The notes under the pieces: generated by a model
Told to the model about the DNA's origin: nothing
Seen by the model: the letters and a program-made list of their open reading frames with translations, nothing else
Database searches by the model: none
Source: Butyrivibrio proteoclasticus B316
Lineage (GTDB): Bacteria; Bacillota; Clostridia; Lachnospirales; Lachnospiraceae
Assembly (NCBI RefSeq): GCF_000145035.1
Contig: NC_014387.1
Span: 2,408,001 to 2,472,000 of the forward strand
Direction: 5' to 3'
Length of the DNA stretch: 64,000 bases
Program-made: the position numbers and the translations under genes
In this document: one piece after another, positions 52,164-59,401 of the stretch
How positions within the stretch are numbered: position 1 is the stretch's first letter
Layout of the letters: every line of letters starts with the position of its first letter

Positions 52164-53975
52164 TCAATCTGTATTATCAAGCTTGAGTACGCTAAGGAAT
52201 GCTGACTGTGGAACTTCAACATTACCGATCTGGCGCATCTTCTTTTTACCCTCTTTCTGTTTCTCAAGAAGCTTCTTCTTACGGGAGATGTCACCGCCAT
52301 AGCACTTGGCAAGCACGTCTTTTCTATAAGCCTTGACTGTTTCTCTGGCGATTACCTTGCCTCCGACAGCTGCCTGAATAGGGATCTCGAACATATGCCT
52401 TGGAATCTCATCCTTGAGCTTCTCACACATCTTACGTCCTCTCTCGTAAGCACCATCCTTGTGAACTATGAATGAAAGGGCATCAACCTCTTCCCTGTTG
52501 ATCAGGATATCAAGCTTAACAAGGTCAGATTTCTCATATCCCTTGAGTTCGTAATCAAATGAAGCATAGCCTCTTGATCTTGATTTGAGAGCGTCAAAGA
52601 AATCATAAATGATCTCATTAAGTGGAAGCTCATACTTGAGAATAGCTCTGGACTGCTCGATGTAGTCAGTACTAAGGTATTTGCCTCTTCTCTCCTGGCA
52701 CAGCTGCATGATTGCACCAACATAGTCAGTTGTAACCATAATCTCGCCGTTAACAATAGGCTCTTCCATATATTCAATCTCAGATGGATCAGGAAGGTTA
52801 GTTGGGTTAGTAAGGTCAAAGCATGTTCCATCTGTCTTGTGAACCTTGTAAACAACGGAAGGTGCTGTAGTAACAAGGTTAAGGTCGTATTCTCTTTCAA
52901 GTCTCTCCTGGATAACTTCAAGGTGAAGAAGTCCAAGGAAACCAGCTCTAAATCCAAAGCCAAGAGCCTGTGAAGTCTCTGGCTCATAGAATAAAGATGC
53001 ATCGTTGAGCTGGAGCTTCTCAAGGGCATCACGAAGGTCTGAATAGTGAGCAGAATCTGCTGGGTAAAGGCCGCAGTAAACCATAGGCATTACCTTCTTG
53101 TAACCAGGAAGTGCCTCTAAGCATGGGTTAGCAAGGTCTGTTACAGTATCACCAACTCGTGTATCCTGAATATTCTTGATGGAAGCGGTGAAATATCCTA
53201 CATCACCTGCAGAAAGCTCATCACTTGCAATAAATCTTCCAGGGCCAAAGTATCCAACCTCTACAACATCAGCCTCAGCATCAGTTGCCATGAATTTAAC
53301 CTTCATGCCCTTTCTGATAACACCGTCTCTTACACGAACAAATACAATAACTCCTCTGTAGGAATCGTAAATACTATCGAAAATAAGCGCCTTAAGAGTG
53401 CCATTTGGATCTCCTACAGGAGCTGGAATCTTGTGAACAACAGCCTCAAGTACGTCCTCGATACCGATGCCATTTTTGGCAGAAATAAGAGGTGCATCCT
53501 GAGCTTCGATTCCGATAACATCCTCGATTTCATCCTTAACCTCCTGTGGCTGAGCACTTGGAAGGTCAATCTTGTTGATAACAGGAAATACATCAAGGTC
53601 GTGGTCAAGAGCCATATATACGTTGGCAAGAGTCTGCGCCTCAACACCCTGAGTAGCATCTACTACGAGGATAGCTCCGTCACAGGCTGCAAGAGATCTT
53701 GAAACCTCATATCCAAAGTCAACATGACCTGGTGTATCGATCATGTTAAAGGTATATTCCTGTCCGTCCCTGGCCTTGTAGATCATTCTGACAGCCTGTG
53801 ACTTGATTGTGATCCCTCTCTCACGCTCTATATCCATATTATCAAGAACCTGGTTCTGCATCTCTCTAAGAGTAAGCACACCTGTTTTCTCTATCATTCT
53901 GTCTGCCAGTGTGGACTTACCATGATCTATATGTGCAACGATACAAAAATTTCTGATTTTATTCTGATCTGCCAA
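52164..53975 (-). CDS. lepA: Translation elongation factor 4 (LepA)
   Basis: A 603-residue translational GTPase with the EF-G-like domain order but the LepA-specific C-terminus. G1 is [13 protein letters not shown], followed by [20 protein letters not shown] and [10 protein letters not shown]. The C-terminal segment ends [21 protein letters not shown]. It acts on stalled or mis-translocated ribosomes. I chose the TTG at 53975, which gives the family's usual start ([17 protein letters not shown]) with GAGG nine nt upstream; another TTG at 53990 overlaps that site. Confidence 0.96.
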
Positions 53976-54062
53976 ATTTATATTCCTCAATTCCTATAAT
54001 TTATTCATGCAAAAATGAAAATTGCCCACAACATCATACCATGTAAGCACCTAAAAATCCAC

Positions 54063-54159: not shown

Positions 54160-55242
54160 TTAACCTATTGGTGTTGCTCCAAACATGTAAGCAAGATATT
54201 CATATCCGCAGAATCCATTTGAATCTAATAGCAGCATTACATCGGTTCCTGCCGGAATGATAACGCGATACTTCACGCCCTTGCTAACATATATAACATT
54301 TACGCTTACATCAGATCTTTGAGTCAATGCCTCCATCATACTTCTTGTAAAGCAAACTTCATCATTAGCCTCAATTACTACTGCGCCACCCAGCTGAGCA
54401 GATGTAATAGCATTAACAACAGCAGTAGTATACTGAATAGGTGTCATTTGGTGCATATCAAGAACTACTGTCACTGTTGGGGCTTCTGCGTTTCCAAGCT
54501 CCTGTGTAGGAAGAATATTCCCAGCACTAGTATTTATAAGTGTAATATTTGCAGGGGCAACTGGCTCCTCTACAACTGTCTGCTGCTCAGGCGCTGGTGC
54601 AGGAGATGGCGCTGGGGATGGTGTAGGTTCTGGTTCAGGTGTAGGAGCTGGTGCTGGTGCAGGGGTTTGCTCTGAACCTGATTCGCCAGAACCAGATTCA
54701 CCGGCACCTGATTCACCGGAGCCTGATTCACCGGAGCCTGATTCACCGGAGCCTGATTCACCAGTCTTCTTATACAAAGTAACTTTATAATTAGTACTGC
54801 CACTTTCAAAGTATTCAAGCTTAATATATTCATCTGAAGCAAGAGGTGTACTTCTTCCTGTGATATAAGGATCAATTAGATTTTCAGCTCTAGTATGTGC
54901 CTGCGAAGAGCTTGCACCCCATTGGCAGTCAAAGGCATGTCCTGCTTCGTAAGTATTCCCGTCAGCGCTGTTATCAGTCACCTGTGTTCCTGCGCCAGCG
55001 CCTGCTGGATAAGGATCATCGTCATTATGATGCTCATCTTCTGACAAAAAGAATCCATTTCTTCCGGTAAAAAGATAATCTTCTTTACCATCATCAGTAG
55101 TATCAAGCCTGTATAAATTACCAGTTTGAGAATATTCAGTTGCTTCGTCAGCAAATGCTGTAACCTTAAATCCAACCATCTGAACAACAAATACTGAGGC
55201 AAGCACAAGCGTTCCCAGCGCTTTTCTTGTCTTTCTATTCAT
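54160..55242 (-). CDS. Secreted repeat-rich protein of unknown function behind a repeat-containing leader
   Basis: A 360-residue protein with a signal peptide (residues about 1-31, cut after TAFA). A mature N-terminal region of about 130 residues has YRLDTTDDGKEDYLFTGRNG. About six imperfect Gly-Ser-Gly-Glu-Ser pentapeptides follow, encoded by 15-bp repeats near 54674-54763, then a Pro-rich PAPTPEPEP linker. The C-terminal region of about 120 residues contains CFTRSMMEALTQRSDV and YRVIIPAGTDVMLLLDSNGF, a pattern I recall from other clostridial secreted proteins but cannot name. There is no LPXTG or lipobox, so it is probably released or non-covalently attached. AGGAG lies six nt before the ATG, which overlaps a leader reading frame (ATGA). 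Confidence 0.75.
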   Translation of the reverse strand: MNRKTRKALGTLVLASVFVVQMVGFKVTAFADEATEYSQTGNLYRLDTTDDGKEDYLFTGRNGFFLSEDEHHNDDDPYPAGAGAGTQVTDNSADGNTYEAGHAFDCQWGASSSQAHTRAENLIDPYITGRSTPLASDEYIKLEYFESGSTNYKVTLYKKTGESGSGESGSGESGSGESGAGESGSGESGSEQTPAPAPAPTPEPEPTPSPAPSPAPAPEQQTVVEEPVAPANITLINTSAGNILPTQELGNAEAPTVTVVLDMHQMTPIQYTTAVVNAITSAQLGGAVVIEANDEVCFTRSMMEALTQRSDVSVNVIYVSKGVKYRVIIPAGTDVMLLLDSNGFCGYEYLAYMFGATPIG

Positions 55243-55280
55243 ATTTCTCTCCTTTCACTACAGCTTTTAGCAACAAAAAA

Positions 55281-55321
55281 CGCCCAATCAGGCAAGGAAG
55301 ACACTCCAAGCCAATTAGGCG
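55281..55321 (-). terminator. Terminator inside the leader of the secreted protein gene
   Basis: CGCCCAATCAGGC (55281-55293) and GCCAATTAGGCG (55310-55321) form an imperfect GC-capped stem followed on the minus strand by TTTTTT. It lies between the pentanucleotide repeat and the secreted-protein start, so it could attenuate that gene. Confidence 0.75.
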
Positions 55322-55372
55322 CATTTTTAGGGTTCATATAAAACTGCACAGCAAAAAAGCTTAAACAGGTAC

Positions 55373-55420
55373 TGATGTGATGTGATGTGATGTGATGTGA
55401 TGTGATGTGATGTGATGTGA
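55373..55420 (-). repeat. Pentanucleotide microsatellite (TCACA), 9.6 copies
   Basis: On the minus strand TCACA is repeated nine times plus TCA without interruption over 48 nt. Uninterrupted five-base units change the reading frame when copies are gained or lost, which is the classical substrate for slipped-strand phase variation. Confidence 0.95.
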
Positions 55421-55421
55421 A

Positions 55422-55494
55422 AGCATATCCCATCTCCTTGTTGCTTGTCAACAGTTATTTGCATAATTGTAATAATTTTTTGTGCGTAATCCAA
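55422..55494 (-). promoter_or_regulatory. Two overlapping candidate promoters before the repeat leader
   Basis: Upstream candidate: -35 TTGGAT (55489-55494), 17-nt spacer, -10 TACAAT (55466-55471); its transcript would include the AAGGAG and leader ATG. Downstream candidate: -35 TTGACA (55446-55451), 18-nt spacer, -10 TATGCT (55422-55427); its transcript would begin inside the repeat. Sequence alone does not decide between them. Confidence 0.55.
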
Positions 55495-55551
55495 TTAAAT
55501 GCCAATTAAAGAATATTAAATTTGAATATGTTTTCCATAAACATTAATCCC

Positions 55552-55672: not shown

Positions 55673-55936
55673 ATGGCTAATATTAAATCCGCCAAGAAGA
55701 GAATTTTAGTTAACGAGAAGAAGGCTGCTAGAAACCAGATGATCAAGTCTGCTGTTAAGACAGAGATCAAGAAGGTTCGTACTGCTATCGAAGCAGGTAA
55801 TAAGGAAGAGGCTGCTAAGGCACTCCTTGCTGCTACTTCAGCTATTGATAAGGCTGAGTCAAAGGGCGTTTTCAAGAAGAACACAGCTTCTAGAAAAGTT
55901 TCTCGTCTTGCTCAGGCTGTTAACAAGATGGCTTAA
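55673..55936 (+). CDS. rpsT: 30S ribosomal protein S20
   Basis: An 87-residue basic, helical ribosomal protein: [20 protein letters not shown] at the start, Lys/Ala-rich throughout, ending [12 protein letters not shown]. It binds 16S rRNA in the body of the small subunit. CGGAGG lies six nt before the ATG, and codon choice is that of a highly expressed gene. It is monocistronic, with its own promoter and strong terminator, and is one of two plus-strand genes in the window. Confidence 0.97.
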
Positions 55937-57065: not shown

Positions 57066-58007
57066 TTACTGCTCCGGATTAGAGAAATCTATTACCTGAT
57101 TATCAGGTGCGCTTGTCTTCTCAACAGAAATAGCCTTGAGTACAGGGCCCTCACCCTGATACTCAGGTACATATTCCTTAACAACCTTGGCTGTAACAAG
57201 TACCCAATCTTTCTCTTCGAGTGATTTAACATCGTCATATTCACAAGCAAAGCCAAGGAACTGCATATCCTGTGCGCAGCATGTCATAGCCATTCTACCC
57301 GGAACAAATCTGTTATCAGGGAACTCCTCAGGCTTAAGTACCATACCTTTAAATCTAACAGTTTTGCCCTCATATCTCTCAACATGATCAAGAGCATCAA
57401 GATAAAACATTCCATAGCCATAGTTGTTGAGATCTATAGGATTTGCATTTAGATCAAATGGGAGATCTTCATCAAGAGTAACGTCAACCTCGCCATTCTT
57501 GTCCTCAAAAATAATATCTGCCTTCTGGTTGATTGCCTTGACATTTCTCTTATAAGATGCAAGATCTTCTATTCCATCACATCTGTTGAAAAGAATAAGA
57601 TCTGAATTGCGAATCTGCTCAGCAAGAAGAGACTTCATATTGTTGAAATAAAGTTCAAAACTTGAAGCATCAATAACGGTAATCTGCTGTTCAAGATTCC
57701 ACATTACAGGAAGTCTCATATTCTTGAAGTTCCACATACCATTGTACTCAACAAGAATACGCTCCGGATTATGCTTGGCATCAAGTGCTACAAGTGCATC
57801 AGGGTTAAAATCTTCCTCTTCTTCTATTCTCTCTACAACTGTGTTAGTAGACTTGAGGAGTTTTTCCTCATAATCATTCTCGCCATCTTCGCAAACGATC
57901 AAAAGGGTCTTTCCTTTTGTCCTGAAGTAAGGCTGTGCAATTGTATAGCGGAAAAAGTCTGTCTTACCGCTGTCCAAAAATCCATTAATAATATATACCG
58001 GTTTCAA
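57066..58007 (-). CDS. CobW-type P-loop GTPase fused to a DUF1980-like C-terminal domain
   Basis: A 313-residue protein. A P-loop NGFLDSGKTDFFRYT opens a G3E/CobW-like GTPase domain, with VEYNGMWN at the Walker B-like position and LFNRCDGIED near the NKXD position (NRCD here). The last 110 residues (VERYEGKTVRFKGMVLKPEE, then RMAMTCCAQDMQFLGFACEY) resemble the C-terminal OB-like domain of YcgQ/DUF1980 proteins. The canonical CXCC metal motif of CobW is absent. I chose a TTG at 58007 with AGGAG seven nt upstream; an ATG at 58025 overlaps that site. It follows the His-rich CobW gene by 70 nt, so a shared metal role is likely (inference). Confidence 0.75.
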   Translation of the reverse strand: MKPVYIINGFLDSGKTDFFRYTIAQPYFRTKGKTLLIVCEDGENDYEEKLLKSTNTVVERIEEEEDFNPDALVALDAKHNPERILVEYNGMWNFKNMRLPVMWNLEQQITVIDASSFELYFNNMKSLLAEQIRNSDLILFNRCDGIEDLASYKRNVKAINQKADIIFEDKNGEVDVTLDEDLPFDLNANPIDLNNYGYGMFYLDALDHVERYEGKTVRFKGMVLKPEEFPDNRFVPGRMAMTCCAQDMQFLGFACEYDDVKSLEEKDWVLVTAKVVKEYVPEYQGEGPVLKAISVEKTSAPDNQVIDFSNPEQ

Positions 58008-58077
58008 TTTAGCTCTCCTAATCATATATAACACCAAATACCGCTGCGCCAACAGGCGCACCGGTATTCATAAACAA

Positions 58078-59373
58078 TTACAGTCTGCGGAACAGTTTCT
58101 CAAGATTCTCTTCCTTGAGCTGAGAACCGATGACACAGAACTTACCTGTTACATCAGCAGCGCCATCTCTGACATCAGCCTCTCCAGGAACGTAATCAAA
58201 CTCAATCCACTTGCCATCTGCTGTAGGAACGACACCCTTTGTACGAAGGACAATTCCGTATTTCTCTTCATCCTCAAGCTGTCCAAGCATCTTCTCAATC
58301 TCATCCTTGGAATACTTAAGTGGTGTTTCCATGCCCCAACTGGTGAATACATCATGAGCTGCATGATCATGGTCATGATGGTGATGATGCTCATGCTCGT
58401 CTTCATCTTCATCGTCGTGATGATGGTGGTGATGATGTTCATGCTCATCCTCATCTTCATCGTCGTGATGATGGTGGTGATGATGCTCGTGCTCATCCTC
58501 ATCTTCATCGTCGTGATGATGGTGGTGATGATGCTCATGCTCATCCTCATCTTCATCATCGTGATGATGGTGGTGGCAGCACTCATGCTCATCTTCATCA
58601 TCGTCATGGTGATGGTGACAGCAACATTCGTCATCATCGTCGTCATCGTCATGGTGAGCACTGTAAACAACAGATCCATCCTCTGCAACAGTCTTGTGGC
58701 TTCCATGATGATGGTGATGATGGTGATGCTCTTCCTCTTCCATTACCTGCTTAAGAAGCTCAGCCTCAAGGTCATTATTACCTTCAAAAGTATCAAGGAT
58801 TTCTTTTCCTGTGATCTGATCAAGAGGAGTTGTGATAATAGTAGCCTTGTCATTATGCTGACGGATAAGCTCTACAGCTTCCTCTATCTTCTTCTGATCA
58901 GCCTTGTCTGTTCTGGTAAGGATAACAGTACCTGCATTCTCAATCTGATTAATAAAGAACTCACCAAAGTTCTTGATATAAACCTTAGCCTTGGAAACAT
59001 CAACTACTGTAACAGCGCTGTTAAGTTCCATTTCTGATGAGCCTTCTGCAATGTTCTGAATTGCTCTCATAACGTCTGAAAGCTTACCTACACCTGATGG
59101 CTCAATAAGAATACGCTCCGGTGCATACTGTTCCATAACCTGCTTAAGTGATGTTTCAAAATCACCTACAAGTGAACAGCAGATACATCCTGAATTCATC
59201 TCTGTAATCTCGATACCGGCTTCCTTAAGGAATCCTCCGTCAATACCAATCTCACCAAATTCATTCTCAATAAGAACTACCTTGGTTCCATTTAATGCTT
59301 CTTTTAAAAGCTTCTTGATAAGAGTTGTCTTACCAGCTCCCAAAAAGCCAGAAATAATATCTATCTTGGTCAT
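58078..59373 (-). CDS. CobW/ZNG1-family GTPase metallochaperone with very long His/Asp/Glu-rich insert
   Basis: A 431-residue protein. The GTPase domain has P-loop SGFLGAGKTTLIKKLL, ENEFGEIGIDGG, the metal-binding CXCC motif (MNSGCICCSL), LIEPSGVGKL and LTRTDKAD. About 125 residues follow (roughly 215-340) made almost only of His, Asp, Glu and some Cys, encoded partly by a 48-bp tandem repeat, before the CobW C-terminal domain. Such tails bind zinc, nickel or other divalent ions, so this is probably a metal-storing insertase, typical of zinc-limitation responses (inference). No Zur box was recognised. The ATG at 59373 has GGAG five nt upstream, and a consensus promoter lies at 59424-59452. 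Confidence 0.9.
   Translation of the reverse strand: MTKIDIISGFLGAGKTTLIKKLLKEALNGTKVVLIENEFGEIGIDGGFLKEAGIEITEMNSGCICCSLVGDFETSLKQVMEQYAPERILIEPSGVGKLSDVMRAIQNIAEGSSEMELNSAVTVVDVSKAKVYIKNFGEFFINQIENAGTVILTRTDKADQKKIEEAVELIRQHNDKATIITTPLDQITGKEILDTFEGNNDLEAELLKQVMEEEEHHHHHHHHGSHKTVAEDGSVVYSAHHDDDDDDDECCCHHHHDDDEDEHECCHHHHHDDEDEDEHEHHHHHHHDDEDEDEHEHHHHHHHDDEDEDEHEHHHHHHHDDEDEDEHEHHHHHDHDHAAHDVFTSWGMETPLKYSKDEIEKMLGQLEDEEKYGIVLRTKGVVPTADGKWIEFDYVPGEADVRDGAADVTGKFCVIGSQLKEENLEKLFRRL
58385..58575. repeat. 48-bp tandem repeats encoding the His/Asp/Glu insert
   Basis: The sequence around CGTCGTGATGATGGTGG recurs with a period of 48 bp (at 58413, 58461, 58509 and a diverged copy near 58557). Each unit encodes 16 residues: seven or so His, then alternating Asp/Glu. 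The copies are nearly identical, so length variation between strains is expected. Confidence 0.85.
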
Positions 59374-59387
59374 ATATACTCCAATCT

Positions 59388-59401
59388 GCACAAATCTGTG
59401 C
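59388..59401. repeat. Small palindrome in the 5' UTR of the His-rich CobW gene
   Basis: GCACA-AATC-TGTGC lies between the promoter and the ribosome binding site. It is a possible operator for a metal-responsive regulator, but it does not match a Zur or Fur consensus that I recognise. Confidence 0.4.

Follow-up and report, generated by a model that had tools for sequence, protein, structure and literature searches.

In the neisserial opa genes, slippage of a pentanucleotide repeat (CTCTT) inside the gene itself shifts the reading frame near the start codon, and in the pyrBI attenuator of Escherichia coli, a leader open reading frame (ORF) crosses a terminator and ends at the structural gene, with translation of the leader preventing termination. 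The closest described system is the pil1 pilus locus of Streptococcus gallolyticus, for which Danne et al. (2014; PMC3894217) traced control to a run of 22 GCAGA units in a leader-peptide gene located before a terminator. According to that study, the 22-unit peptide ends 49 bp before the terminator (39 bp in the legend to its Fig. 6), a configuration with low expression; high expression goes with 21 or 23 units, for which the stop lies either 4 bp short of the hairpin or inside it. Tests with chloramphenicol and of the ATG, the stop codon, and the terminator gave concordant support for attenuation, the mapped transcript start lies upstream of the repeats (~400 nt before pilA), and a second locus, pil3, combines the same parts (PMC3894217). 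Here, we describe a locus of similar layout in a 64,000-nt stretch of the Butyrivibrio proteoclasticus B316 genome (NC_014387.1; G000:C1:2408001-2472000; "the window" below): a leader ORF built around a (TCACA)9.6 repeat, followed by an intrinsic terminator and a gene for a 360-aa putative secreted protein. We read it as a phase-variable transcription attenuator that controls this protein, with a probability of roughly two in three.

The locus reads on the minus strand and is flanked by rpsT (plus strand, 55673 to 55936) and lepA (minus strand, 52164 to 53990), both names being assigned from translations; its features are collected in Table 1. An earlier, sequence-only reading of this DNA had proposed the repeat, the adjoining start site, a terminator before the secreted-protein gene, and the stops reached in the three frames, and all of these were recovered here, the repeat to the base. 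The TCACA tract is the only perfect array of period 4 to 8 with at least 25 nt and at least three units in the window. It follows AAGGAG-N7-ATG (55426) and a CTT codon; when the 140 nt upstream were shuffled, a Shine-Dalgarno (SD) sequence and start codon of this kind (AAGGAG-N5-9-ATG) arose by chance in 0.4% of cases. The three leader frames end at +9, +43, and +131 past the repeat, and the longest, opened by the loss of one unit, ends in a TGA (55241 to 55239) that overlaps the start codon of the gene (55242) as ATGA. Because 5 and 3 are coprime, TCACA encodes a single pentapeptide, SHHIT, in every frame; slippage would therefore alter only the endpoint of translation and leave the repeat peptide unchanged.

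The terminator (stem, 55322 to 55281) folds at −24.6 kcal/mol in a 61-nt piece, compared to −11.5 kcal/mol for shuffles (standard deviation, 2.3; z = −5.7; 0 of 200 as stable), and a 111-nt piece around it gave z = −3.8. Its T tract is followed after only ~20 nt by the SD sequence of the gene, and the promoter scan listed no promoter-like site on the same strand in this interval. Two other kinds of leader control were rejected. For a riboswitch, Rfam gave no match in the window at the gathering threshold, one chance-level match at the leader (E = 3.7, below threshold and on the other strand), and none at a paralogue of the gene elsewhere in the genome. A His-type amino-acid attenuator would suit the high His content of the leader; against it, TCACA yields SHHIT in every frame and the gene is not biosynthetic-looking.

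Table 1. Coordinates of the features at the leader and the secreted-protein gene (window positions)
Feature	Position	Strand	Remarks
Direct repeat TTTAATTGG ×2, 11-bp step	55491..55510	−	Over P2 −35; possible regulator site
P2, candidate upstream promoter TTGGAT-N17-TACAAT	55466..55494	−	Putative; 8/12 match, under scan threshold
P1, promoter-like pair TTGACA-N18-TATGCT	55422..55451	−	10/12 match; predicted start in first repeat unit
AAGGAG, SD sequence of leader ORF	55434..55439	−	N7 spacing to ATG 55426
(TCACA)9.6 simple sequence repeat	55373..55420	−	Perfect, 48 nt; leader ORF codons 3-18
Leader ORF, present copy number, 21 aa (MLSHHITSHHITSHHITSVPV)	55361..55426	−	Stop 55363-55361, 38 nt before stem; predicted OFF
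Frame with one unit more, 34 aa	55327..55426	−	Stop 55329-55327, 4 nt before stem; predicted partial ON
Frame with one unit less, 60 aa	55239..55426	−	Through hairpin; predicted ON
Intrinsic terminator	55275..55322	−	Stem-loop 55322-55281, then T6; from folding
AAGGAG, SD sequence of secreted-protein gene	55249..55254	−	6 nt before its ATG
Controlled gene, 360-aa protein	54160..55242	−	Signal-peptide-like start, GESGS/PA-rich linker, C-terminal domain

Among the systems compared, opa differs in having neither a leader nor a terminator, and pyrBI differs in that UTP-dependent pausing, not a repeat, exerts control. The likeness to pil1, as far as that locus is described in PMC3894217, extends to a pentanucleotide repeat directly after the SD-ATG of a leader, a premature terminator before the gene, and a similar geometry, in which translation of the window's leader stops 38 nt short of the stem as the repeat now stands, 4 nt short of it with one unit more, and beyond it with one unit less. 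The two loci differ in unit and length (TCACA ×9.6 versus GCAGA ×22), in host, in product (a small secreted protein in a member of the Lachnospiraceae versus a pilus), and, relative to the published description, in that the long frame of the window ends at the start codon of the gene and a promoter-like pair is flush with its repeat. The sequence-only reading named no described system in the Lachnospiraceae that joins a frame-switching leader repeat to translational attenuation; such a statement does not hold for bacteria at large, given pil1 and pil3, and for the Lachnospiraceae our literature searches found no published switch of this kind. The locus is most likely an independent Butyrivibrio member of the pil1 kind, in its OFF phase.

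We propose the following mechanism. An upstream promoter (candidate, 55494 to 55466) would produce a transcript carrying the short leader ORF, and replication slippage would change n in (TCACA)n, which opens at the third codon of the leader. At n = 9.6, ribosomes would leave at 55361, the terminator would form, and the gene would be OFF. With one unit less, ribosomes would cross the hairpin and end at the ATG of the gene, allowing read-on transcription and coupled translation (ON), while one unit more would probably give a partial ON state. Changes in repeat number would thus probably switch the secreted protein on and off. The passage of ribosomes through the terminator under the control of slippage, as the sequence-only reading had it, is the best account in view of the pil1 analogue and of the recurrence of the layout in ~11 groups described below, with the qualification that it requires an upstream promoter. 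Such a promoter as the source of the leader message is supported by analogy, and a role for the frame in deciding attenuation by anatomy and precedent; that the promoter flush with the repeat might set the switching rate is conjecture.

The layout is not confined to the window. A scan of the genome collection for GGAG, an ATG, and five CANAN units returned at least 118 stretches, and in 75 of the 80 loci listed the tract is perfect over 25 nt or more (76 such tracts in all). Some of these are repeats within genes; others are leaders in which all frames are short and a terminator starts ~30 to 86 nt further on. Thirteen leaders were taken as representatives: the window, Lactococcus ACAAC, Streptococcus AAATC and AGCAC, Lactococcus chungangensis GAGCA, Ruminococcus AGCAC, Streptococcaceae CAGCA, Lachnospiraceae GCAGA (two forms), Enterococcus canis AGAGC, Brachyspira AGACC, Lactobacillus ACAGC, and Lachnospiraceae XPB1003 ACAGA. 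Terminators are similar within the two Streptococcus forms and within the two GCAGA forms, which leaves ~11 groups that are unrelated by eye. Early-stop and hairpin-reaching frames occur together in 13 of 13 representatives versus 8.5 expected (P = 0.004), or in 11 of 11 versus ~7.2 when one of each similar pair is dropped (P of about 0.008, by division of the shuffle figures), although these leaders had been picked for short frames plus a terminator, and both they and the thresholds were chosen with the data in view. With the criterion fixed, 8 of 17 leader-type arrays, the window included, have a strong terminator no more than 140 nt away (1.0 expected), as do 3 of 25 in-gene arrays (1.2 expected); a looser criterion gave 14/21 and 14/33, respectively. 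Among the products encoded downstream are an LPXTG protein carrying a SpaA domain, N-6 DNA methylases, a CBM2 protein, and an M23 peptidase; weak matches below threshold add SipW-dependent biofilm-matrix proteins. In L. chungangensis (L126), GAGCA is repeated 66 times without a mismatch (331 nt) in a leader before a −24.6 kcal/mol hairpin, and the downstream protein has weak, sub-threshold TapA/TasA matches. Three arrays reach a contig end (L133, L146, and L188) and one holds a run of N (L238); assemblies therefore probably under-report such repeats.

A second pentanucleotide leader of the genus was met by chance in the repeat scan. In Butyrivibrio sp. Su6 (G087), just beyond a 361-aa homologue of the window protein, lies a leader (L173) with AAAAGGAG-N9-ATG, (GCAGA)8.2, and a −35.6 kcal/mol terminator; the repeat of S. 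gallolyticus pil1 has the same GCAGA unit. The gene that this leader would control encodes a protein of 1,329 aa that begins with a signal-like stretch, contains MBG, Ig-like, and YDG domains, and shares the C-terminal domain of the window protein (35% identity over 85 aa; 5e-11). This leader belongs to a GCAGA family with the leader peptide MRNRxTLLRAEQ (MQTMLQSCRAEQ and MRTMLQSCRAEQ in two members) and similar terminators. Among the matches listed, seven homologous leaders with a detected terminator differ in phase, with stops at +5 (L139, L302, and L345), +22 (L157), and +64 to +79 (L173, L235, and L284). This count leaves out arrays for which no terminator was detected (the first array of L124 at +69, L348 at +94, L159, and the second array of L124) and the arrays of L180, of which one lacks a leader ATG despite its terminator and the rest lack a terminator. 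The perfect tracts of the seven leaders range from 8.2 to 18.2 units, with copy number and phase differing across species. Arrays of five GCAGA units were found in 7/397 family genomes and 4/79 genus genomes, compared to 0 for the pattern written backwards. The terminator DNA of L139 matches 5/397 family genomes; in the two of these five that were read (L421 and L422), the layout with TTGACA is kept, the long repeat is lost, and AGCAAGCAAGG or GACAGACAGACA remains, possibly representing frozen switches. The GCAGA leaders thus resemble the window in design, in genus or family, and in their secreted products, with the same C-terminal domain in Su6. They differ from it in that their leader and terminator sequences are unrelated to those of the window by eye and TTGACA or TTTACA lies between the SD sequence and the ATG.

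A promoter-like pair flush with the repeat (P1), absent from the sequence-only reading, complicates this picture. Its TTGACA begins 31 nt before the tract, and after an 18-nt spacer its TATGCT, one base from the repeat, contains the leader ATG. A scan of 2 kb gave 7 promoter-like sites versus 5.8 in shuffles, so that P1 gains weight solely through its position; TTGACA fell at −35 to −29 in 0.2% of shuffles of the upstream DNA of the window. With a predicted start in the first repeat unit, transcripts from P1 cannot carry the leader ATG. P1 alone would leave the leader untranslated, and the attenuator reading therefore depends on an upstream promoter, for which P2 is the candidate. The direct repeat over the P2 −35 element resembles a response-regulator box.

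Promoter-like sequences hold the same position in many other long repeats. Exact TTGACA lies at −35 to −29 in 26 of the 77 listed scan arrays, which were selected for SD and ATG, not for promoters, and include the window, and 10 times across the 80 positions from −120 to −41 of the same arrays. IMG/VR arrays chosen by repeat alone (GCAGA, AGCAC, and TCACA) carry it at −34 to −30 in 14/79, with 4 elsewhere in −120 to −6 and 0/80 at the same offsets on the opposite side. Among period-5 arrays that were unselected, had distinct flanks, and reached 8 copies or more, TTGACA lies at −36 to −26 on one side in 19/41, whereas the other 179 permutations of TTGACA averaged 0.23, no hexamer scored higher, and control positions further up gave 1/42; arrays with too little flank were dropped before counting, and this set is mostly from IMG/VR and may retain a few homologous arrays after de-duplication. 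Matching −10 elements accompany these hexamers. NANNNT occurs at spacers of 16 and 17 in 17/46 and 21/46 flush contexts (1 to 7 at spacers of 8 to 15, 5 at 18, and 10 at 19), and a hexamer with at least 4/6 TATAAT letters occurs in 31/46 at spacers of 16 to 18 versus 6/46 at control spacers of 8 to 10. The association is with long arrays, TTGACA being found in 1/59 arrays of 5 to 7 copies versus 19/41 longer ones (P = 3e-8; the offset windows differ slightly), and it varies by unit (at least 8 copies: GCAGA, 12/18; AACAG, 5/9; AGCAC, 1/7; AGGAC, 0/4; TCACA, 0/2). For the window's own unit elsewhere, a flush promoter was found in 0/6 distinct TCACA arrays. Farther upstream, at −60 to −37, where a leader promoter would lie, −10-like hexamers are enriched (2.5 per position versus 1.1 further up).

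Several flush promoters stand where gene expression explains them poorly. Arrays inside phage genes for a C-5 methylase (L273 and L276) and a PAPS reductase (L290) place a consensus promoter within coding sequence. In L296 and L324 (IMG/VR; genes alike by eye and outside the scan), the tract lies near the same codon (134, 135, and 141), with a different unit in L324; L290 is open through its tract, and L324 appears to be out of frame. AACAG arrays and Streptococcus AAATC leaders have their promoter on the opposite side, and L237 and the tetranucleotide array L329 (TGAC ×11) have TTGACA flush on both sides, forming converging promoter-like sites. Of the tetranucleotide arrays met incidentally, 5/7 in the viral loci and 0/2 elsewhere carried a flush promoter, as did 1/3 period-7 arrays. 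A single mobile element spreading repeat and promoter together was rejected: the 46 flush contexts share no 16-mer over most of the promoter stretch, and the units differ. The mid-gene and two-sided promoters would be accounted for if they served to open the repeat and so promote slippage. We tentatively suggest, at odds well short of even, that many long bacterial and phage repeats, that of the window included, carry on one side or both their own sigma-70 promoter, which starts transcription in the first unit and would serve to set the slippage rate and not to express a gene, with scrunching, an R-loop, or collision with replication as conjectural routes of opening; the counts above show the positional association. 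Convergent transcription has been linked to repeat instability in eukaryotic systems, according to the accounts in PMC3463551 and PMC4176329; for bacteria, we found no precedent for promoter-driven repeat slippage in the open-access literature.

A number of observations weigh against the attenuator, beyond the selection of the representatives noted above. The stronger promoter-like pair, P1, overlaps the SD sequence and ATG of the leader, and the candidate P2 is weak. Folded in full, the 195-nt leader has no unusual stability (z = −0.7; 44/200 shuffles as stable), and 7/21 leader-type arrays have no terminator under the looser criterion. Early-stop and hairpin-reaching frames also appear in 74% of shuffles of the interval between repeat and hairpin, so the frame layout carries little weight alone. 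The copy number of TCACA is known from a single genome, one genome per species having been compared: four units occur in 1/79 genus genomes and five in 1/397 sampled family genomes, in each case only in the genome studied here (78 and 396 others without), which has no second occurrence of four units in its 4.4 Mb. No repeat was found upstream of the own-genome paralogue or of the Su6 homologue, whose upstream DNA was read in both cases. Lastly, the RNA polymerase of Bacillus subtilis outruns ribosomes, which would weaken antitermination based on translation; yet pil1 works in a Firmicute.

These points bear on three rival explanations. If P1 were the main promoter, transcription would start inside the repeat, the SD sequence and ATG would be untranscribed, and the frame would be irrelevant; the gene would be expressed by read-through of the terminator, and the repeat number would at most tune the structure or stability of the 5′ end. 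The 10/12 match, the placement of the ATG within the −10 hexamer, and the recurrence of the flush position in 26/77 (matches listed) and 19/41 arrays, which makes P1 unlikely to be accidental, all speak for this. We nevertheless consider it unlikely, given that AAGGAG-N7-ATG is itself improbable by chance, that a strong SD-ATG precedes 4/7 arrays selected by repeat only (L232, L235, L237, and L238), that −10-like hexamers are enriched farther upstream, and that the pil1 start was mapped upstream of the repeats (PMC3894217).

The leader might instead be a small gene or small RNA in its own right, ending at its own terminator; the repeat would then be a neutral microsatellite, and the secreted-protein gene would be expressed by leakage through the terminator or from a weak adjacent promoter. 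A repeat that is young and private to one genome, a frame layout so often reached by chance, and the insertion of the entire unit between rpsT and lepA would fit such a history; however, the short distance from the T tract to the SD sequence of the gene, with no promoter-like site listed there on the same strand, and the coincidences that it would make of the ATGA overlap and of the repeated occurrence of this layout ahead of other secreted proteins render it rather improbable. Least probable is a purely translational switch, in which the long frame would bring ribosomes to the gene through the ATGA overlap while a leaky terminator plays no part in switching: the gene has its own AAGGAG, so that coupling is unneeded, the hairpin is strong, and transcript levels change in pil1 as described (PMC3894217). 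The phase-variable attenuator remains our preferred reading.

The 360-aa protein has as its closest relatives two database proteins with 49% and 40% identity, and further relatives are the paralogue in the same genome (L037; C1:1756143-1757153; genome searched, 4,404,886 bases in 4 contigs, with contig 1 of 3,554,804 bases) and the Su6 homologue. A family profile matches 57/79 genus genomes, with many matches falling in the low-complexity linker and many members sharing only the C-terminal domain, which is common to other secreted proteins of the genus. The sequence TTTAATTG is also present upstream of both the paralogue and the Su6 homologue. That the leader is a conserved one of the gene family was rejected, since the paralogue has no repeat and only a weak upstream hairpin (−6.0 kcal/mol; z = −0.3) and the Su6 homologue, from its upstream sequence, has no repeat. 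Membership in the rpsT-lepA region was likewise rejected. In relatives with the rpsT locus, lepA is divergent within 1,500 nt of rpsT in 20/24, and in 19 of those 20 its P-loop lies 209 to 385 nt from the rpsT ATG; DNA similarity to relatives reaches at most ~147 nt from rpsT, shorter matches beyond (best E, 9e-5) looking like chance. This spacing and the limit of similarity make the gene with its leader look like an insertion, probably one in this lineage. Elsewhere in the window, two adjacent CobW-type GTPases, metal-handling-like, are encoded on the minus strand: one (58078-59391) has a long insert rich in His, Asp, and Glu, which tandem DNA repeats with 48-nt units encode, and the other (57066-58061) carries a DUF1980_C domain.

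If the suggestion about flush promoters is true, such a promoter would be a simple, removable cis element that explains high mutation rates at contingency loci, an old question. As to the leader itself, a design for switching by a leader-peptide repeat, known from the pili of one pathogen, now appears as recurrent in several Firmicutes lineages and in Brachyspira. The layout precedes genes for secreted and LPXTG proteins, weakly biofilm-matrix-like proteins, and DNA methylases, and switching of this kind in commensal Lachnospiraceae becomes directly testable.

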